Shown here: piece by piece, positions 10,211 to 23,881 of the stretch
Position numbering within the stretch: the stretch's first letter is position 1
Layout: each line of letters opens with the position of its first letter
Origin: Methylocella sp.
Lineage (GTDB): Bacteria; Pseudomonadota; Alphaproteobacteria; Rhizobiales; Beijerinckiaceae
Assembly (NCBI GenBank): GCA_037200525.1
Contig: JBBCGG010000001.1
Location: forward strand, 4,394,501-4,458,500
Length of the DNA stretch: 64,000 nt
Direction of reading: 5' to 3'
Notes under the pieces: generated by a model
The model's input: the letters and a program-made list of their open reading frames with translations, nothing else
Told to the model about the DNA's origin: nothing
Databases searched by the model: none
Made by a program: the position numbers and the translations under genes

Positions 10211-11775
10211 CTAATGCGCCTCAACTGGCGCGGCGCTCCGCCGAGGCCTTCTCAGCAACACGATTGCGGAAAGGCTGATGATCAGCCCGACGCCAACGAT
10301 CCAGAAGGCGTCGGAATAGGCTGACACATAAGCCTCCCGCCGGACCTGAGCCGCCAGCGACATAAGGGCCTGCGCTTTGGCCATGGCCGGGTCAGCGAGG
10401 CCGTTGCGCAATCCAGCTATGAGCATGGCGAGCCGCTCCTGCGTCCGCGTGGCGTTCTGCGTCATGGCTTCGGCCAGCATCGAGAAGTGGAAATGCTCGC
10501 GCCGCTCGATGACGGTCGCCAGCATTGCGATGCCGACGGAGCCGCCGAGATTGCGCATCATATTCGACAGCGCCGATGCGTCCGCCGTGTCGCGCGGGGT
10601 AAGGCCCGCGGTGGCGAGTTGCGACAATGGGATTGAGAAGAGGGGTTGACCCGCCGCGCGCAAAAGCTGCGGCAGGATCAGCTGGTCCATGCCAACGTCA
10701 TGCGTCAGGTTCACATTGATGAAGCAGCTCGATGCAAAGAGCAAGGTGCCGATAACCACGAGAATGCGGGGATCGAACCGCTTCATGAGAAAGGGCATGG
10801 CCGGAAACAGCACGAGCTGCGGCAGGCCGCTCCACATGACGACATAGCCGATCTGCTCGGCGTTATAGCCTTGGATCTGCGCGCATAGAGCGGAATCACA
10901 TAGGTCGATCCGAGCGACACGGCGCCGAGCACCGTCATCAGCGCGCAGGACGCGCCGATCGTTCTGTTGCCAAGGACGCGCAGATTGATGAACGGCTTTG
11001 CGGCGGTGAACTCGCGCAGGATGAAGCAGAAGATTCCAATCGTCGCGACAACTGCGAATTGGCTGATTGAGCTCGACTCGAACCATTCCTTCCGCTGCCC
11101 TTCCTCAAGCACGTAGGTCAGGCTGGAGAGGCCGATCGCCATCGCCGCAATCCCGATCCAATCGCCCTTCGGAAGCTCGGCCCATCGCGCAGATTGCTTC
11201 GGCAAGGCCATCAATTGAATGATCGCGGCGATCGGGCCTGGAATGAGGTTCAGGTAGAAAATGTAGTGCCAGGAGAAATTGTCGGTGAGCCAGCCTCCTA
11301 TCGTCGGGCCGATGGCTGGAGCAAACGTCGCCGTCAAGCCGAAGAAGGTGATGCCCAATCCTTGCTGTGATTTCGGCAGGCGCGTGCGGATGATGGTCAC
11401 GGCGGTCGGGATCAAGACGCCGCCGGTGAACCCCTGCCCCGCCCGAAAAATGATGAGTTGGGTCAGCGACGTCGACAGCGCGCAAGCGATCGAGAAGGCG
11501 ATGAACAAGCCGGTGTTGACCGACAGATAGCGGCGGAGGCCAAAGATCGATCCAAGCCAGCCGGTCAGCGGGATCACGACGATCTCTGCCATCAGATAGG
11601 CGGTGGAGATCCAGCTCCCCTGCTCCGCCGAGGCGCCGATGGCGCCTTCAATATTGGCGAGCGAGGAGTTGGTTATCTGAATGTCGAGGATGGCGGTGAA
11701 AGCGCCGAGAATGGCGCCGGCGACCGCCAGCCAATCGGCGAGGGAGGCTTTCGCTTCGGGTTCGCCGATCGTCAT
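10211..11775 (-). pseudogene. DHA2 (EmrB/FarB-type) MFS drug exporter, interrupted by a one-base frameshift
   Basis: The N-terminal half (10783-11775) reads as a 14-helix DHA2 exporter: AILDIQITNSSLANIEGA, motif C-like APAIGPTIGGWLTDNFSWHYIF. It stays in register to STYVIPLYA, then loses it. The C-terminal half continues in the next frame from QIQGYNAEQIGYVV to the stop at 10211, including LSNMMRNLGGSVG. The whole span is 1565 bases, one short of a multiple of three, so a single deleted base near 10880-10890 explains it. Start overlaps the emrA-like stop by 4 bases. If the lesion is real the exporter is dead; a sequencing error in the GCGCGC run is the alternative. Confidence 0.85.
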
Positions 11776-13025
11776 TGCGAGCTCAGAGCGCCAAGCTGAA
11801 TTGCCTCGGCGGACTGTTCTTTGGGACGGCCTCGCGTGTCGATCGCCGCCTCCGCAGACAGGCCCGGCCGCAACCGCGCGATCAGCGGATCACGATCGTC
11901 CAAAATGATTTTGACCGGAACGCGCTGCACCACTTTGGTGAAATTGCCCGTCGCATTCTCCGGCGGCAGCAGAGCGAATTGCGATCCCGTGCCGGGAGCG
12001 AAGCTTTCGATCTCGCCGTGGAAGAGGTGATCGCCGAAAGCGTCGACGGTGAAAGTGGCGGCTTGCCCTTCGGTCATCGAGCCAAGCTGCGTCTCTTTAA
12101 AGTTGGCGACGAGATAAATAGCCTTTCCCATCGGCACGATCGTCAAAAGGCTCGTGCCCGGCTGAACGAATTGGCCCTTGCGCAACGCCCTGTCGCCGAC
12201 CACCCCATCGATTGGAGCTGAAATCGTCGTGTACTCGAGATTGAGCTTTGCCTGATCGAGGTTGATCTCGGCTCGCTGCAGGCTGGCGCGCGCGGCGCCC
12301 TCGAGGGAGAGCAGACCATCCGTCTGCTTTTGCGCGGCGTCATAGGTCGCGTTGGCCTTATCGAGCGTCGCCTGCTTAACGAGGAGATCCGAACTCGCCT
12401 GATGCGACCGCTGGACAGTCCCCGCGCCGCGGATGAGAAGATTGCCATAACGTTGCTGCTCTTCGGCCGCGAAGTCGAGAGAGGCGGCCGCATTGGCCAC
12501 ATCCGCCTTAGCTTCTTCGATCTTCGCCTGCTGCTGAATGAGCGCGGCTGCAACGCCATCGAGACTGGCGCGCGCCTTATCGAGATCGGCCTGGGACTGG
12601 AGAAGCGCGACCCGTAAATCCCGGTCATCGATCCGCGCCAGAACCTGCCCGGCTTTCACAGGCTGGTTGTCGCCCGCGAAAACCTCCGCGATAAAGCCGC
12701 CGACCTTTGGCGCCACGACAACCTTGTCGGCCTGCAGGTAGGCGTTGTCGGTCGTCTCTTCGAAACGGCCATCCGTCCACCAATGCCAGCCAAAGCGGCC
12801 CGCCGCTCCGACCGCGAGCAAGGCGACAATCGCGATAATGGCCCGCTTGCGCGAGAATCGCGAGGCCGCCTTTTCAGCGCGAGCTCCAGCATCGGGCGCT
12901 TTTGGGGGACTCAATCTCGCGGCGGGAGGCTCGTCCCCACGGAGACGAACGATCGTCTCGCTGGCGATCACGCCTTCGCTCATTGCGCCGGTTTGATGAG
13001 CATGAGATCTTGCTGAAGCGTCCAT
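11772..13025 (-). CDS. HlyD/EmrA-type membrane fusion protein
   Basis: Adaptor that links a DHA2 inner membrane exporter to an outer membrane channel. It has a cytoplasmic N-terminus, one membrane segment (about residues 62-80: AIIAIVALLAVGAAG), a lipoyl half-motif (VVVAPKVGGFIAEVF), a long coiled-coil hairpin (about 120-240) and the second half-motif (TTISAPIDGVVGDRALRKGQ), ending in a beta-barrel domain. It is first in a divergent operon with emrB, opposite the TetR gene, so it is presumably repressed by that regulator. An in-frame ATG at 12983 (MSEGVIAS) is an alternative start. The transported compound is not evident. Confidence 0.9.
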   Translation of the reverse strand: MDASARSHAHQTGAMSEGVIASETIVRLRGDEPPAARLSPPKAPDAGARAEKAASRFSRKRAIIAIVALLAVGAAGRFGWHWWTDGRFEETTDNAYLQADKVVVAPKVGGFIAEVFAGDNQPVKAGQVLARIDDRDLRVALLQSQADLDKARASLDGVAAALIQQQAKIEEAKADVANAAASLDFAAEEQQRYGNLLIRGAGTVQRSHQASSDLLVKQATLDKANATYDAAQKQTDGLLSLEGAARASLQRAEINLDQAKLNLEYTTISAPIDGVVGDRALRKGQFVQPGTSLLTIVPMGKAIYLVANFKETQLGSMTEGQAATFTVDAFGDHLFHGEIESFAPGTGSQFALLPPENATGNFTKVVQRVPVKIILDDRDPLIARLRPGLSAEAAIDTRGRPKEQSAEAIQLGALSSQ

Positions 13026-13044
13026 TTTTCGACCATTATGAAAC

Positions 13045-13060
13045 AGAACGGTACTGTTCT
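13045..13060. promoter_or_regulatory. Palindromic operator in the emrA/tetR divergent promoter
   Basis: AGAACgGTACtGTTCT is a 16-base inverted repeat with one mismatched pair. It sits midway between the two divergent start codons (13025 minus, 13106 plus), and TATACT overlaps its right edge (13060-13065) as a possible -10 box for the tetR gene. Size, symmetry and position fit a TetR-family operator controlling both directions. Confidence 0.6.
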
Positions 13061-13105
13061 ATACTCAGCGTCGCTGAATGGCAAGCTAAAATTTTGAGGC
13101 AGACG

Positions 13106-13795
13106 ATGAACGAGACCCTCGAGGACAGGCCGAAGGAGCTGCGGCCGAAGACGCGCGGCGGCCGTCCAACCAAGGCGGCGGCGGCGCTGCGCGACGAGCG
13201 TCTTCTCGAAATCGCGGCCGAGATGTTCATGGAGCATGGCTTCGATGCGACGTCGATGGACCGGCTCGCCGAGACCGCCATGATTGGGAAGGCGACGCTC
13301 TATGCCCGCTATGCCGACAAGGCGGCCCTTTTCGCCGACGTTTTGCGCCGGCGCATCCTTCTGATCTATGAGCCGCTGGAGGCGGAATTCGAAAAAGGCC
13401 TGAAAGGCAAGGGCCTCGAAGCGACCTTGCTGATCGTGGCGCGTCGGATGACCGACCTTAGCGTGGCCCCCTCCACTATCGCCCTTTTTCGCATTCTCGC
13501 CGCTCAAGGGACGCGATTTCCTGAACTCGGCAAGCTTGCCATTCAGGAAGGATTGTATCGGCAAATCAAGATCGTCGAAAAAATCCTGATCCGCTTTTCC
13601 GGCGCGCATCGCTATGCAATCGATGATTTATCGCTTGCCGCGGATCTCTTTCTCAGCATCGTTCTCGGCCGCGTGTCCCGAATAGCGCTGCTTGGCGTCC
13701 ATATGGAGCCGGAAGCGCTCGATCGCCGGGCGCGCGAGGCGGTAAGGATCTTCGTGCGAGGCCTGCTTGAGCCGCCGTCCGCCGACCTCCGCTAA
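13106..13795 (+). CDS. TetR/AcrR-family transcriptional repressor
   Basis: 229 residues. The N-terminal DNA-binding domain is clear: RDERLLEIAAEMFMEHGFDA, then TSMDRLAETAMIGKATLYARYADKAALFADVL, the canonical TetR helix-turn-helix. The C-terminal region (about 80-225) is a helical ligand and dimerisation domain with the AefR-like pattern seen in efflux regulators. Start at 13106 is chosen over upstream in-frame codons because GAGG lies 7-10 bases before it and the domain begins shortly after. It is divergent from the emrAB-like operon with a palindrome between, so it is the probable local repressor. Confidence 0.9.
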   Translation: MNETLEDRPKELRPKTRGGRPTKAAAALRDERLLEIAAEMFMEHGFDATSMDRLAETAMIGKATLYARYADKAALFADVLRRRILLIYEPLEAEFEKGLKGKGLEATLLIVARRMTDLSVAPSTIALFRILAAQGTRFPELGKLAIQEGLYRQIKIVEKILIRFSGAHRYAIDDLSLAADLFLSIVLGRVSRIALLGVHMEPEALDRRAREAVRIFVRGLLEPPSADLR

Positions 13796-17509: not shown

Positions 17510-18215
17510 AGCTAGCCCGGCGTGCAATTTCGCACATCGCCGGAAGATGATGTCCGCTAGCCCTGAGCTACTATTTCAGCACCTAAAAATTTACAATTAT
17601 GAGCAGCCGATGGCCATCTCTCCGCCGCCATCCTTTCGCACGAGCGATGCGCGGGCCGGAAGCCGCTTCGGCGGCGGGACTTGGCCATCCCATTCCTAAG
17701 CCGCGTCGCGAGCTTCAATCGGCGTTGATCCGCGTCCAAAAATACGGAGCGCAGGCGGGTCGAGACCTGGTCTTGCCGTAAGTCTCGCAGACGCGCTATA
17801 AGCACCCGCTTAGCCGAGCGAAATCATCCCAGCTTTTATCAACTTGGGCGCGGGTCGCTCAACAAAGTCACGATCGTTGCGCGCGATTGCGATCCATGTT
17901 TAAGAGCAGATTGATGATTTCCCAGCCGAAGGTCCGCCGACTGAATAGGTTTATCGATGTCCGAGAGTTCAGGCTAATTTTCTAAAGGATAAAATCATAC
18001 AAATCCTGCCCATTAGGACATCTTCTTGCGCAACGGATGCCTAACGAGCCACTCAATAAGAAGAGTTTAATGATGATCCATTGCAATCGATTGTGATTAG
18101 TGCGGTCAACGCTCATGCGCTATGATAATAGTTGCATAAAATTTATACATCTGTCCAAATTTCTGCTCCCTTCTTAGTCGCTGACGCCGCCATGGGCTTG
18201 CGCGAAAGGCTCTTT
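17510..18215. other. Long gap upstream of the polyketide operon
   Basis: About 700 bases without a supported gene. Frames at 17557-17805 (minus) and 17599-17781 (plus) show no domains. The final 250 bases are clearly more AT-rich (for example around 17975-18160) and probably contain the operon promoter and any operator. A ribosome binding site GAAAGG lies at 18203-18208. Confidence 0.4.
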
Positions 18216-19268
18216 ATGAACGATGCAACCGCGCTGGTGTCCGTCGCAACCGCCTCGCCCCCGCATAATTTCTTTCAGCGAGATGTTGCCTCGCTCGCCC
18301 GCAGCCTTTTTGGCGAACGCTATCCGGACTTCGAGCGACTTTCGCGCGTCTTTTTGAACACCGGCATTGTCCAGCGCCAGGGCGTGAAACCCGTTGAATG
18401 GTATCTCGAGCCGCGGGCCTGGCCCGAACGGACGCAAGCCTATCTTGAAGGGGCGCGCGATCTATTCGTCGCCGCGACTGAACTTGCGCTCAGCCGCGCT
18501 GGGCTGACCGCTGCGCAGATCGATACGGTCGTCGCTGTCTCATCGACGGGGATTGCGACGCCGAGCCTCGAAGCGCGCGCGGCGGCTCATGTCGGATTCC
18601 GGCGAAATATCTCGCGCGTTCCTATTTTTGGCCTCGGCTGCGCAGGCGGGGTCACGGGACTTTCGATCGCTTCGCGTTTGGCGCAGGCGCAACCAGGCAC
18701 GAATGTTTTGTTCGTCGCCGTCGAACTCTGCACCTTGGCGCTTCGTCTCGACGAATTGACTCCCGCCAATATCGTGGCCACGAGCTTGTTCGGCGACGGC
18801 GCCGCCGCCTGCATTGTTCGCGCGGGCGATGGCGGCGATGTTCTCGTCGAGGGCGCAGGCGAGTATCTGTGGCCGGACACGTTGGACATCATGGGCTGGA
18901 GCGTCGATCCGGAGGGATTTGGCGTGATCTTCCAGAGCTCCATTCCTGCGTTTGTCCACGAAAATATGCGCACCGCGGTCAGCGACATTTTAGCGCGCTT
19001 CGACCTCTCAATCGACGATGTCGAACGATTTATCTGTCATCCCGGCGGCGCCCGCGTGGTCAAGGCGCTTGAGGCTGCGTTGTCGTTGGGTCAAGGCTCG
19101 CTCGATCACGAGCGAAGCGTTCTGGCCGATCACGGCAATATGTCCGCCCCAACGGTTTTGTTCGTCCTTGAACGGATGTTGAAGAGCAAAATGCCGAATC
19201 GAGCCGTTATGACCGCGCTCGGACCAGGATTTACCGCCAGCTGCGTCTCCCTGCGGCGGGCCGCATGA
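18216..19268 (+). CDS. Type III polyketide synthase (chalcone/alkylresorcinol synthase-like)
   Basis: 350-residue thiolase-fold enzyme that extends an acyl-CoA starter with malonyl-CoA and cyclises the chain to a resorcinol, pyrone or similar ring. The catalytic triad is seen: Cys142 in FGLGCAGGVTGLS, His275 in CHPGGARVV, Asn308 in DHGNMSAPTVLF; the His-Asn spacing equals that of plant chalcone synthase. A LGPGF loop is near the C-terminus. The start at 18216 has GAAAGG 7 bases upstream; 18192 is a possible longer start. It heads an operon whose next gene overlaps by 4 bases. The downstream methyltransferase makes a methylated phenolic lipid or pyrone the likeliest product (inference). Confidence 0.9.
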   Translation: MNDATALVSVATASPPHNFFQRDVASLARSLFGERYPDFERLSRVFLNTGIVQRQGVKPVEWYLEPRAWPERTQAYLEGARDLFVAATELALSRAGLTAAQIDTVVAVSSTGIATPSLEARAAAHVGFRRNISRVPIFGLGCAGGVTGLSIASRLAQAQPGTNVLFVAVELCTLALRLDELTPANIVATSLFGDGAAACIVRAGDGGDVLVEGAGEYLWPDTLDIMGWSVDPEGFGVIFQSSIPAFVHENMRTAVSDILARFDLSIDDVERFICHPGGARVVKALEAALSLGQGSLDHERSVLADHGNMSAPTVLFVLERMLKSKMPNRAVMTALGPGFTASCVSLRRAA

Positions 19269-19780
19269 GCCTCTCCGCCATCATATTGGCGTTGGTGACC
19301 GCGCAGCGGGTCGGCGAGCTGCTTCTGTCGCGGCGCAATACCGCGCGCCTCGTGGCGCGGGGCGCGATCGAAATCGGCAAGTCCCATTATCCCTATCTCG
19401 TCGCCATGCATGCCGCCTGGTTGCTGACGATCTGGGCGTTGGGGGTCGGCCAACCGGTCCAGTTCTTCTGGCTTGCCTTGTTTTGCTGTCTGCAGGTTTT
19501 GCGGGCGTGGGTCATTGCGACGCTCGCTGGCCGCTGGACGACGCGGATCATCGTGCTGCCTGGCGCAGATCTCGTGAAAAGCGGTCCATATCGTTTCATA
19601 TCGCATCCCAATTACATCGTCGTCTGCGCGGAAATTGCCGTCTTCCCGATGGTCTTCGGCCTGCCTTGGGTGGCCGTCACGTTTTCCATCCTTAACGCTC
19701 TCGTCCTCGCCGTCCGAATAACAATCGAGAATCGCGCCCTGGCGGCGAACTCATCTTTGTTTCCGTCCGTCAGGTCATGA
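19265..19780 (+). CDS. Isoprenylcysteine carboxyl methyltransferase-like membrane methyltransferase (SrsB-like)
   Basis: 171 residues with about four hydrophobic segments. The ICMT-family C-terminal core is seen as SGPYRFISHPNYIVVCAEI, the S-adenosylmethionine-binding block of this family, followed by a Glu-Asn-Arg motif (TIENRALAANS). In Streptomyces griseus the ICMT-like SrsB O-methylates alkylresorcinols made by the type III PKS SrsA; the same gene pair order here suggests the same kind of step. ATGA overlap with the PKS and with the next gene implies coupled translation. The position of methylation is not predictable. Confidence 0.8.
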   Translation: MSLSAIILALVTAQRVGELLLSRRNTARLVARGAIEIGKSHYPYLVAMHAAWLLTIWALGVGQPVQFFWLALFCCLQVLRAWVIATLAGRWTTRIIVLPGADLVKSGPYRFISHPNYIVVCAEIAVFPMVFGLPWVAVTFSILNALVLAVRITIENRALAANSSLFPSVRS

Positions 19781-21336
19781 CCTCCGAGAGCGCGCCCTAT
19801 ATCGAAGCGCAATCCTTCGAAAGAGCCCGCATCGGCACATGGTTTGGATTCGGCCTGATGTGCCTTGGCATGTTCATGGCGATCCTCGACGTCCAAGTCG
19901 TGGCGACATCGCTGCCCAATATTCAGGGCGCACTCAACATCAAGCCCGACGCGATGAGCTGGATTCAAACAGCCTATTTAACGGCGGAGGTGGTTGCGAT
20001 CCCGCTGACCGGCGGACTGATGCGCGTGTTCACCATGCGCTGGCTGTTCGTCGGGGCGACCGCCGCTTTCACCTTCGCGTCGATCTGCTGCGCCTTCAGC
20101 AGCGGCTTCTCGAGTCTTGTCGCGTTCCGCGTCATCCAAGGATTTTCGGGCGGAACCCTGATCCCTTTGGTTTTCTCGGCCGTCTTTCTCTTGTTTCCCA
20201 AGCGGCAAGAAGGCCTCGCGACGACGCTCGCGGGCGTCCTCGCCATGCTTGGCCCAACCGTCGGACCAATTGTCGGCGGCTGGATCACCGAGACCTATTC
20301 ATGGCACTGGCTGTTTCTCATCAATGTCGCTCCGGGACTGATCGCAGTCGGCTTGACCCCGGCGTTGCTGCCGCGCGATAGGCCGGATTTACGCCATGCA
20401 AGGACTCTCGATTGGCTTTCGCTCATCCTGCTGATCATCGCCTTGGCATGTCTTGAGATCGGATTGAAGCAGGCGCCGGAGGCGGGTTGGACGGCCGCAT
20501 CGACATTGGGTCTGCTTGGCGCAAGCGTCCTCGCCGGGGCCTTTTTCGCGAAGAAAACCTTGAGGGCGGCTCAAAAGATCGTCGATCTCGCCACGTTGAA
20601 AAACCTCTCTTTTGCGATTGGCTGCGTTCTCAGCCTCTGTCTTGGCGTCGGGCTGTTTGGCTCTGTCTATCTGATGCCTGTGTTTCTCGCCTATGTCCGC
20701 GGTCACGACTCGTTGGAGATCGGCACGGTCATGCTGGTGACCGGCTTGGCCCAACTGGCGACGGCGCCGCTTGCAGTCTTTCTCGAAACCAAGATCGACG
20801 CTCGCCTATTGACGGCGCTGGGCTTTGCCCTGTTCGCGCTGGGTCTTGGAGCCTCCGCGTTCGACACGATCGACGCCGACTTCGATGAGATGTTGTGGCC
20901 CCAAATCATACGCGGCGTCGCGATCATGTTCTGCCTGCTTCCGCCAACCCGCATCGCGCTCGGCAACCTTTCGCCAAAGCAAGTTCCTGACGCAAGCGGA
21001 CTGTTCAATCTGATGCGGAATCTCGGAGGGGCGATCGGCCTCGCCCTTGTCGACACCGTCCTTTATGGACGCATCCCGATCCATGCCGAGGCGTTGAAAG
21101 TCGGCCTCATGGCGGGCGATGCATCGGCCGCGCTCGCGGTCGGACTTTCGCCAAGCAGAGTTGCGCAGAAAGCCGGGGCGCCTATCGACGCGGCGACTGA
21201 AGCCTATGTGCGGCCCTTTGTCGAAAGAGGCGCTTTCGTGATGAGCGCAAACGAAGCCTGGCTTCTGCTAGCCGCCTTTTCTCTCATCGGCTTGGTGGGG
21301 ATTGCATTGCTCGCGAAAAGGTCCGCTCAAAGGTGA
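19777..21336 (+). CDS. DHA2-family MFS exporter
   Basis: 519 residues with the 14-helix DHA2 pattern: MFMAILDVQVVATSLPNIQGAL (helix 1, motif D1-type) is followed by motif A-like and motif C (GVLAMLGPTVGPIVGGWITE). The C-terminal half contains the NLMRNLGGAIGLA block common to EmrB/FarB exporters. It overlaps the methyltransferase upstream (ATGA) and the next gene downstream (GTGA). Lying inside the polyketide operon without an EmrA adaptor, it is best read as the exporter of the product across the inner membrane, or as self-resistance. The frame is intact, unlike the EmrB copy at 10211-11775. Confidence 0.9.
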   Translation: MTSESAPYIEAQSFERARIGTWFGFGLMCLGMFMAILDVQVVATSLPNIQGALNIKPDAMSWIQTAYLTAEVVAIPLTGGLMRVFTMRWLFVGATAAFTFASICCAFSSGFSSLVAFRVIQGFSGGTLIPLVFSAVFLLFPKRQEGLATTLAGVLAMLGPTVGPIVGGWITETYSWHWLFLINVAPGLIAVGLTPALLPRDRPDLRHARTLDWLSLILLIIALACLEIGLKQAPEAGWTAASTLGLLGASVLAGAFFAKKTLRAAQKIVDLATLKNLSFAIGCVLSLCLGVGLFGSVYLMPVFLAYVRGHDSLEIGTVMLVTGLAQLATAPLAVFLETKIDARLLTALGFALFALGLGASAFDTIDADFDEMLWPQIIRGVAIMFCLLPPTRIALGNLSPKQVPDASGLFNLMRNLGGAIGLALVDTVLYGRIPIHAEALKVGLMAGDASAALAVGLSPSRVAQKAGAPIDAATEAYVRPFVERGAFVMSANEAWLLLAAFSLIGLVGIALLAKRSAQR

Positions 21337-22136
21337 CGACCCGTTCGACGCGCGCGGCGATCGCGATCATCTATGGCCTTTGCTGCCACGCCGCCTTCGC
21401 GCTCGGCGTCGGAGCAATGATGGCTGCGATGTTCTTCGGCATGAGCCGCTCGCTCGGCGCGCTTTCGGCGCCATGGAGTTTTGCGGCCAATGGATTTCTC
21501 CTGATCCAATTTCCCATTCTGCATTCATGGCTGCTATCGCGACCGGGGCGCTCGCTCCTGAGCCGTCTGGCCCCGTTCGCTCTCGGCGATCGGCTTACCA
21601 CGACGACATATGCGTTCATTGCGTCGGTGCAGGTGGGGCTGCTGTTTGTCTTGTGGTCTCCCTCGGGAATCATATGGTGGCAAGCGAGCGGTCTCGCGCT
21701 AGCCGCTATCAGCTCCCTTTACGCGACCGCTTGGCTGCTTCTTTTGAGATCGATCATCGACGCCGGCTTTGCAATGCAGGTCGGCTTGCTGGGTTGGCGG
21801 GCTGTCGCGAAGGATGTCGCGCCCAAATATCCTCCGATGCCAAAGCTCGGTCTTTTCCGCATTTGCAGACAGCCTATCTATGTTTCGTTTGCGTTGACGC
21901 TTTGGACAACGCCGACCGTGACGCCGGATCAGCTGGTCGTTGCGACGGCTCTGACGGCCTATTGTCTGATCGGACCGATGTTCAAGGAGGCCCGCTTCAA
22001 GCGCTTATTCGGGGACCAGTTCGAGGCGTATCGACAAGAGGTGCCTTACTTGCCCCAGTGGCCGCGCCGCTCGGCGTTGATCCTTCAGAGGGAAGCCGGT
22101 CCGGCGCGCTGCGATTCGAGCTTGCCAAACATTTAG
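21333..22136 (+). CDS. Second NnrU/ICMT-like integral membrane protein
   Basis: 267 residues, six or more hydrophobic segments. The C-terminal part has FRICRQPIYVSFALTLWTTP and later FGDQFEAYRQEVPYLPQW, the spaced motifs of the methyltransferase/NnrU-type (MddA-like) membrane family. The start is a GTG whose bases overlap the exporter stop (GTGA, 21333-21336). A second membrane methyltransferase-like protein in the same operon could methylate another position or act on the lipid tail; it could also be a non-catalytic NnrU-like protein. Methyltransferase activity is inferred only. Confidence 0.7.
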   Translation: MTTRSTRAAIAIIYGLCCHAAFALGVGAMMAAMFFGMSRSLGALSAPWSFAANGFLLIQFPILHSWLLSRPGRSLLSRLAPFALGDRLTTTTYAFIASVQVGLLFVLWSPSGIIWWQASGLALAAISSLYATAWLLLLRSIIDAGFAMQVGLLGWRAVAKDVAPKYPPMPKLGLFRICRQPIYVSFALTLWTTPTVTPDQLVVATALTAYCLIGPMFKEARFKRLFGDQFEAYRQEVPYLPQWPRRSALILQREAGPARCDSSLPNI

Positions 22137-22211: not shown

Positions 22212-23141
22212 ATGAAACGTAGATCTTTCCTCGCCGCAACCGCGACTCTTTGCTCTGCAATCGCATCAAAGTCGTTTGCCGCGTCCCCTGCCATATTTTT
22301 GGGCTACGACCAGGAGCAGCTCGACAAAGCTTACGACCAATCCTTTTGGGCGCCGCAGATGAAGGAGTCCGAAGCAACCGACAGCGCGGCGAGCGTCGCG
22401 GTGCGCCGAGCGATGCCGCCCTCGACGGAACAATACGGGCCGAATGCGGCCGATCTGATCGACATTTTCGCGCCGGTCGGAGCGCATGACGCGCCGATCT
22501 TCGTCTACATCCACGGCGGCGCCTGGATCCGCAATACAAGGCTGGACGCCTCATATCCGGCCCCTACCCTGACCGGTCGCGGCGCCGCCTATCTCGCGCC
22601 CGATTTCGGGAGCCTCAAGACTTCGCGCCTGCCGGAGATGGTGGAGTCATGCCGCCTCGCCCTGGAATGGACGGCGCGCAATGCCGCCAGCTTCGGCGGC
22701 GATGCTACCCGAATCTTTCTCGCCGGCCACTCCTCCGGCGCTCACCTTGCGGCCTGCGCGCTCGCCACCGACTGGACCGCCCGCGGCCTGCCAGCCGACC
22801 TCATCAAAGGCGCTTTCTTAATGAGCGGCATGTATGATCTTTATCCGGTGCTTCTTTCGTCGCGCAGGAGCTTCCTGCATCTCACGGAGAAAGAGGCGAC
22901 GGAGTTTAGCCCGATACGGCATTTGGACCGCATCAACTGCCCGGTCGCCGTCCTCAACGCCGATCAGGACAGCCCCGAATTCAAGCGCCAATCAGACGTT
23001 TTCGCCGACGCGCTGAGGGGCATGGGGCGGCTGGCGAACCGCACCGTCGTGTTCAACGCCAACCATTTCCAAGAGCCCGAGCAACTGACCCGGGCCGATA
23101 GCGAGGTCAGCCAGGCGGTCTTCTCCCTGATGGGACTGTGA
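22212..23141 (+). CDS. Secreted alpha/beta-hydrolase (BD-FAE/kynurenine formamidase-like esterase)
   Basis: 309 residues beginning with a twin-Arg-like signal (MKRRSFLAATATLCSA ... SFAASP). It has the oxyanion block VYIHGGAWIR, the nucleophile elbow LAGHSSGAHLAA (Ser in GHSSGA), and a late His in VVFNANHFQEPEQL, with Asp in VLNADQDSPEF. These are the features of the esterase group that includes kynurenine formamidases. It follows the polyketide operon by 75 bases on the same strand and may be cotranscribed, for instance as an esterase acting on the exported product (inference). Confidence 0.85.
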   Translation: MKRRSFLAATATLCSAIASKSFAASPAIFLGYDQEQLDKAYDQSFWAPQMKESEATDSAASVAVRRAMPPSTEQYGPNAADLIDIFAPVGAHDAPIFVYIHGGAWIRNTRLDASYPAPTLTGRGAAYLAPDFGSLKTSRLPEMVESCRLALEWTARNAASFGGDATRIFLAGHSSGAHLAACALATDWTARGLPADLIKGAFLMSGMYDLYPVLLSSRRSFLHLTEKEATEFSPIRHLDRINCPVAVLNADQDSPEFKRQSDVFADALRGMGRLANRTVVFNANHFQEPEQLTRADSEVSQAVFSLMGL

Positions 23142-23278
23142 CGCCTCGCAGGCATGTTTTTCCGCGATCTGCAATGGTATCTTCCTCAATTCGGCCAATC
23201 ATTGTATCTGGGGCGCAACACGAGCTTCCCATTCCGAACATCCGCCGCAAACCCGTGCGCAACCCTTGGAGTTTATCG

Positions 23279-23881
23279 ATGAGCCCACCCAAATCGCTCC
23301 TGCAAATGGTCGGCGCGCCGGCGCATCCTTCACCGCTTGAGCGCTCGGCGCTCATTCTCATCGATATTCAGCGCGAATATTCCGACGGCGCCGTGCCTTT
23401 GGCGCGCGTGCATGAAGCCGCGGCCGAGGCCGCAAAAGTGCTGGAACTCGCGCGCCGCCATAACGTCCCGGTTTTCCATATCGCGCACTCGACCGGTCCC
23501 GGCGGACCGGTGTTTGACCCAAACGGCCCTTACTACGCTTTCCTTCCGGAAGTAGCGCCCTTGGCCTCGGAGACTGTTGTCGTAAAACCCCATGCGAATT
23601 GCTTCATCAAGACGGATCTCGATCAGTTGATCCGGCCCACCGGCCGACAGGAATTGATCATTGTGGGAAATATGACCCATGTCTGCGTTTCGGCCACGGC
23701 GCGATCGGCCGCTGAGCAATACGGCTACCGCGTCACCGTTGTTGGCGATGCAACTGCGGCGCGAGATCTGCCAAATCCACTCGGGGGAGTGGTCGAAGCC
23801 GAAACCGTTCGGCAGACGGCCTTGACAGAACTCGCGGATTTTTTCGCCATCGTCGTCAAGGACGCGTCCGCGTGGGGCTGA
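23279..23881 (+). CDS. Isochorismatase-family cysteine hydrolase
   Basis: 200 residues, cytoplasmic. The family triad is visible: Asp in SALILIDIQREY, Lys in VVVKPHANCF, Cys in GNMTHVCVSATAR. It therefore belongs to the nicotinamidase/ureidoacrylate/isochorismate hydrolase superfamily; the residues seen do not separate these activities. The start at 23279 has TTGGAG 7-12 bases upstream; a longer frame reaches back to 23138, where GTG would overlap the hydrolase stop. Same strand as the polyketide operon, but a biosynthetic link is unproven. Confidence 0.85.
   Translation: MSPPKSLLQMVGAPAHPSPLERSALILIDIQREYSDGAVPLARVHEAAAEAAKVLELARRHNVPVFHIAHSTGPGGPVFDPNGPYYAFLPEVAPLASETVVVKPHANCFIKTDLDQLIRPTGRQELIIVGNMTHVCVSATARSAAEQYGYRVTVVGDATAARDLPNPLGGVVEAETVRQTALTELADFFAIVVKDASAWG

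Follow-up and report, generated by a model that had tools for sequence, protein, structure and literature searches.

Organization of the operon

The window, a stretch of 64,000 nucleotides of Methylocella sp. DNA, carries four consecutive genes on the forward strand: a type III polyketide synthase (PKS; 18216–19268, 350 amino acids), an ICMT-family membrane methyltransferase (ICMT; 19265–19780, 171 amino acids), a DHA2-family (EmrB-like) MFS exporter (DHA2; 19777–21336, 519 amino acids), and an MddA/NnrU-like membrane protein that is probably a methyltransferase (MT2; 21333–22136, 267 amino acids). The genes overlap by 4 bases at each of the three junctions, in the order ATGA, ATGA, and GTGA, and both the ORF coordinates and the junction bases agree with the overlaps described in the initial annotation. 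An alternative PKS start codon (TTG) occurs upstream at position 18132, and the relatives of the protein align from the ATG at position 18216. A promoter scan was uninformative (0 sigma-70-like sites found, 2.0 expected). Esterase and isochorismatase-like genes (22212–23881), which run in the same direction as MT2 and have a 4-base overlap between them, begin 75 bases past MT2 and might be co-transcribed with the operon; no conserved link was seen between this pair and the cassette formed by the first three genes.

Protein families encoded by the first three genes

The PKS matched the Pfam domains Chal_sti_synt_N and Chal_sti_synt_C at 70.4 and 56.1 bits, respectively (cut-off 27). The Cys/His/Asn triad claimed for it is present as C142, H275, and N308, is invariant in 26 relatives, and aligns with the triads of the solved enzymes Pks11 and THNS. 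In terms of structure, the nearest solved type III PKS was Pks11 of Mycobacterium tuberculosis (PDB 4jao; E = 1e-46, or 6e-73 with a profile), an alpha-pyrone synthesis enzyme by name, although the two sequences are distant. The score against the profile of the 3,5-dihydroxyphenylacetyl-CoA synthase DpgA (NF042429) was 152.9, under the curated cut-off of 425.

Among the relatives, the PKS RHE_RS29540 on the symbiotic plasmid p42d of Rhizobium etli CFN 42 shares 61% identity with the window PKS and is probably RePKS, an enzyme that converts acetyl- and malonyl-CoA to a heptaketide pyrone and C4–C18 acyl-CoAs to tri- and tetraketide pyrones (PMC6274091). Unlike the window PKS, the p42d gene is solitary, without ICMT or DHA2, and no remnants of either were found next to it with tblastn. 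Only the PKS was likewise retained in other copies of the Rhizobium symbiotic-plasmid type (loci L072–L080, L189, and L103), of which that of Rhizobium sp. Root708 (L103) has a weak or degenerate ICMT-like ORF (30%) at the same ATGA junction.

The protein encoded at 19265–19780 matched PF04140 (87.5 bits; cut-off 24) and scored 19.4 against the protein-S-isoprenylcysteine O-methyltransferase equivalog NF040696, under its cut-off of 160. It was related to Ma-ICMT (4a2n) at 1e-5 with a profile, and its AlphaFold model (pLDDT 91.9) had top Foldseek matches that included the ICMT structures 5v7p and 5vg9, with probabilities of 0.97 and 0.92 but E-values of 0.13 and 0.31. The product of the third gene passed TIGR00711 (EmrB) with 378 bits against a cut-off of 230.2. 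Together with the overlaps, these family profiles agree with the earlier description of the genes as a coupled operon for a type III PKS, a methyltransferase of the ICMT family, and a DHA2 exporter.

Conservation of the PKS–ICMT–DHA2 cassette

Named-species genomes were scanned for relatives of the PKS, and the best 80 loci (identity 59–70%) were combined with further loci into a set of 94, a few of which are redundant. The ICMT gene was located immediately 3' of the PKS gene in 75 of the 94 loci, with a 4-nucleotide overlap in 67, and DHA2 was the next gene after ICMT in 43 loci, with a 4-nucleotide overlap in 20. In three further loci, including those of Brevundimonas and a Phenylobacterium MAG, DHA2 occurred just upstream on the opposite strand, whereas at least 29 of the 94 loci had no adjacent DHA2, partly through contig ends. 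The trio was present in Bradyrhizobium, Bosea, Rhizobium, Mycoplana, Alsobacter, Magnetospirillum and its relatives, and Reyranella, and a Phyllobacterium plasmid has the three genes annotated in this arrangement.

The picture was similar in a survey that covered 297 genomes of the same order. PKS and ICMT occurred together in 61 genomes, PKS only in four, ICMT only in three, and neither in 229 (Fisher p = 1.5e-54), and ICMT was located directly downstream of 57 of the 69 PKS genes. When membership of the DHA2 clade was defined by a score of ≥500 bits, all 20 genomes with a clade member also contained the PKS (p = 5e-15), and ICMT directly preceded 14 of the 20 clade DHA2 genes. The distance matrices of PKS, ICMT, and DHA2 were correlated (r = 0.79–0.89, against a permuted maximum of 0.19 and with species phylogeny not controlled for), and the three therefore tend toward joint inheritance.

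PKS–ICMT–DHA2 is thus a recurrent cassette in several alphaproteobacterial orders, and it goes beyond chance because its genes keep their order in many genera. The exporter had previously been regarded as an inserted gene that, like the fourth gene, lay outside the known set. This view held for MT2, but DHA2 belongs to the set because the trio recurs, its members co-occur, and their distances correlate; its recurrence within the cassette rules out an inserted foreign gene. Conservation beyond close relatives, which the initial annotation had taken as the check on its proposal, was likewise found for the first three genes but not for the four-gene co-directional order, which was confined to the window genome. 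In none of the other loci found was MT2 the immediate, co-directional successor of DHA2, and the four-gene order was rejected as a conserved unit. No publication describing the cassette was found in the open-access literature.

Distribution and likely horizontal transfer

The cassette is patchily distributed around its host. No close match to the window PKS clade was found in the 14 other sampled genomes of the genus (best E = 4e-37), and a PKS match at E = 1e-60 occurred in 28 of 169 genomes of the family. In the phylogenetic trees, the window PKS grouped with copies from Bradyrhizobium and Nitrobacter (support 0.996, and 0.988 after the addition of family members), as did the window DHA2 (0.99 and 0.97), and the corresponding grouping of ICMT was weakly supported. 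Plasmid-borne copies were found in Nitrobacter, Phyllobacterium, and many Rhizobium. A likely cause of the patchiness is that the cassette was transferred horizontally, with loss elsewhere a possible alternative. In the GC profile, the base composition of the operon is like that of its surroundings.

MT2 as a rare addition to the cassette

The initial annotation described the fourth gene product as a second ICMT/NnrU-like protein. MT2 is indeed an MddA/NnrU-like membrane protein, but the ICMT part of the description fails at the level of protein family: MT2 had no Pfam match, PF04140 (ICMT) included, and Pfam ICMT was rejected as its family because that cut-off was not reached. Its best named family comprised the MddA methanethiol S-methyltransferases and NnrU-like proteins (NF045656). 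With 84.7 bits against a cut-off of 270, MT2 could not be assigned to MddA, and it formed a clade apart from the MddA-like outgroup. Searches of PDB sequences with MT2 and with an MT2 profile gave no match. In its AlphaFold model (pLDDT 78.4), the top six matches obtained with VIA-align all had the ICMT/steroid-reductase fold (4quv, 5v7p, 5vg9, 7c83, 4a2n, and 7bw1; Z = 6.7–7.8), with Z falling to 4.6 at rank eight, and Foldseek gave no E-value below 0.001. The residues R179, P181, Y183, and E219 are invariant. Because the R-x-P-x-Y and later E motif is common to ICMT-type enzymes, MT2 is most likely a SAM-dependent methyltransferase, a putative assignment within a fold class, ICMT/steroid reductase, that also includes reductases.

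MT2 occurred in only five of the 169 family genomes and abutted the cassette in three of these: the window genome, Lichenifustis flavocetrariae (locus L096, the same as L211), and genome G781 (locus L210). Within the family, only three genera were thus seen to have this rare add-on beside the cassette. MT2 was co-directional and overlapping only in the window, and convergent in L. flavocetrariae and G781. A search for MT2 on plasmids found none. The Lichenifustis MT2 forms a single fusion protein with a soluble class I (UbiG-like) methyltransferase (L211:6163–7689, equivalent to L096:11115–12641), and a homologue of this class I domain is encoded by the gene adjoining MT2 in locus L178.

A conceivable though less probable alternative is that MT2 has nothing to do with the polyketide and is a stress-, thiol-, or quinone-linked membrane enzyme brought to the locus by rearrangement. 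This is consistent with the order-level survey, in which the PKS was present in three of the seven MT2 genomes and the two were not associated (p = 0.18; 297 genomes), and with the genes that adjoin MT2 homologues elsewhere, which are photolyase, SDR, and UbiG-like methyltransferase genes and not PKS genes. On the other hand, the juxtaposition of MT2 and the cassette recurs in three genera and in two orientations, the three cassette-linked proteins form one clade (support 0.991), and the other two are 64–71% identical to the window protein, as against 47–55% for the remaining homologues. The 4-base overlap with DHA2 in the window also counts against this alternative. Bradyrhizobium copies without MT2 form the sister group of the window PKS, and the wider clade (support 0.946) includes both of the other MT2-linked loci.

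The MT2 homologues located away from PKS genes (L179, L182, L183, L218, and L221) had photolyase/cryptochrome, SDR, or FAD-oxidoreductase-like genes nearby, a setting suggestive of light or oxidative stress.

Predicted product and function of the operon

The pairing of the PKS with a conserved, adjoining ICMT-type gene that overlaps it by 4 nucleotides resembles two known systems. In BpsA–BpsB of Bacillus subtilis, the methyltransferase gene adjoins that of the type III PKS, and the two enzymes together yield triketide pyrone methyl ethers (PMC4901931). Both Pfam families occur in B. subtilis, which is consistent with this comparison without establishing the pair as homologous; the two systems are likened by gene arrangement, not by sequence, and neither a DHA2 exporter nor MT2 is described for BpsA–BpsB. 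SrsA–SrsB of Streptomyces griseus, on which the initial annotation was modelled, likewise pairs its type III PKS with an O-methyltransferase, as in the window. It differs in its resorcinol chemistry and later oxidation step, whereas the window PKS is nearer to pyrone synthases. SrsA–SrsB is not known to have an exporter or an MT2 counterpart.

The parallel with srsA–srsB thus stands insofar as a PKS occurs with a methyltransferase. As a model, however, BpsA–BpsB, which makes alkylpyrone methyl ethers, is the better one, because the closest characterized relatives of the PKS make alpha-pyrones. An exported O-methylated alpha-pyrone is therefore favoured over an SrsAB-type phenolic lipid, given that the PKS is nearest to the pyrone makers Pks11 and, probably, RePKS. 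On the competing reading, the PKS product would be an alkylresorcinol or a resorcylic acid, from which O-methylation by the ICMT-like enzyme would give a phenolic lipid, perhaps oxidized later to a quinone. The gene arrangement is equally that of srsAB, and SrsB is named as an O-methyltransferase acting on alkylresorcylic acid in a title cited in PMC5916927. We consider this reading unlikely, because the closest solved and probable characterized relatives are pyrone synthases, the cassette has no FAD oxidoreductase, and the second type III PKS of the genome has neighbours of the resorcinol/quinone type. This second PKS (G000:C1:1056459–1057199; locus L119) lies beside a methyltransferase and an FAD oxidoreductase, an arrangement seen in alkylresorcinol clusters (PMC10896814) and in Acetobacteraceae (PMC8776678), suggesting that the two PKS systems make different products.

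The probable role of the trio is to synthesize, methylate, and export a small polyketide resembling a pyrone. The PKS would condense malonyl-type units onto a CoA-activated starter and release a small pyrone-type polyketide. By analogy with BpsB and its BpsA-derived substrates, the ICMT-like enzyme may then O-methylate this polyketide at the inner membrane, using SAM. DHA2, as a proton antiporter, would expel the methylated, lipophilic product. MT2, from a separate MddA/NnrU-like family, appears to have been drawn into the coupled operon in the window genome, where it would probably carry out a second modification, most likely a further SAM-dependent methylation. The coupled operon thus plausibly makes, methylates, and exports a polyketide, and we regard as the best-supported account, with somewhat more confidence than doubt, that the trio is a biosynthesis-and-export cassette for a methylated pyrone and that MT2 is a recruited second tailoring step.

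That the exporter serves instead as a general drug pump for self-protection or resistance, with the PKS product not its cargo, is improbable. Multidrug export is the usual role of EmrB-type DHA2 pumps, and six of the 20 clade DHA2 genes are located away from the PKS; nevertheless, the PKS is present in every genome with a clade member, and the DHA2 distances track those of the PKS and ICMT.

Reports of type III PKS genes whose product is not known are frequent for the genomes of Microvirga (PMC6780248), Bradyrhizobium, Rhizobium, and others, and the conserved methyltransferase–exporter context joins these scattered genes into a single pathway that can be tested and whose product is predicted to be secreted. 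If the p42d gene of R. etli is RePKS, the locus of the assayed enzyme is without partners, and the natural methylated product made in other genera may therefore have been missed. More tentatively, the methylated-pyrone cassette could represent a dedicated secreted pathway across the Alphaproteobacteria, the sole relative assayed so far (probably RePKS) belonging to a locus that lost its partner genes, and into which the unrelated MT2 was recruited in one family to give a doubly modified product; MT2 would then mark the second tailoring step.

The window also contains an EmrA/EmrB-type pump operon, with an EmrB-like gene (10211–11775, reverse strand), an HlyD gene (11772–13025, reverse strand), and a TetR gene (12902–13795, forward strand). 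The EmrB-like gene is broken across two frames (10783–11775 and 10211–11086), owing either to a frameshift or to an assembly error. In several Bradyrhizobium loci, an HlyD–DHA2 pair directly adjoins the PKS cassette.
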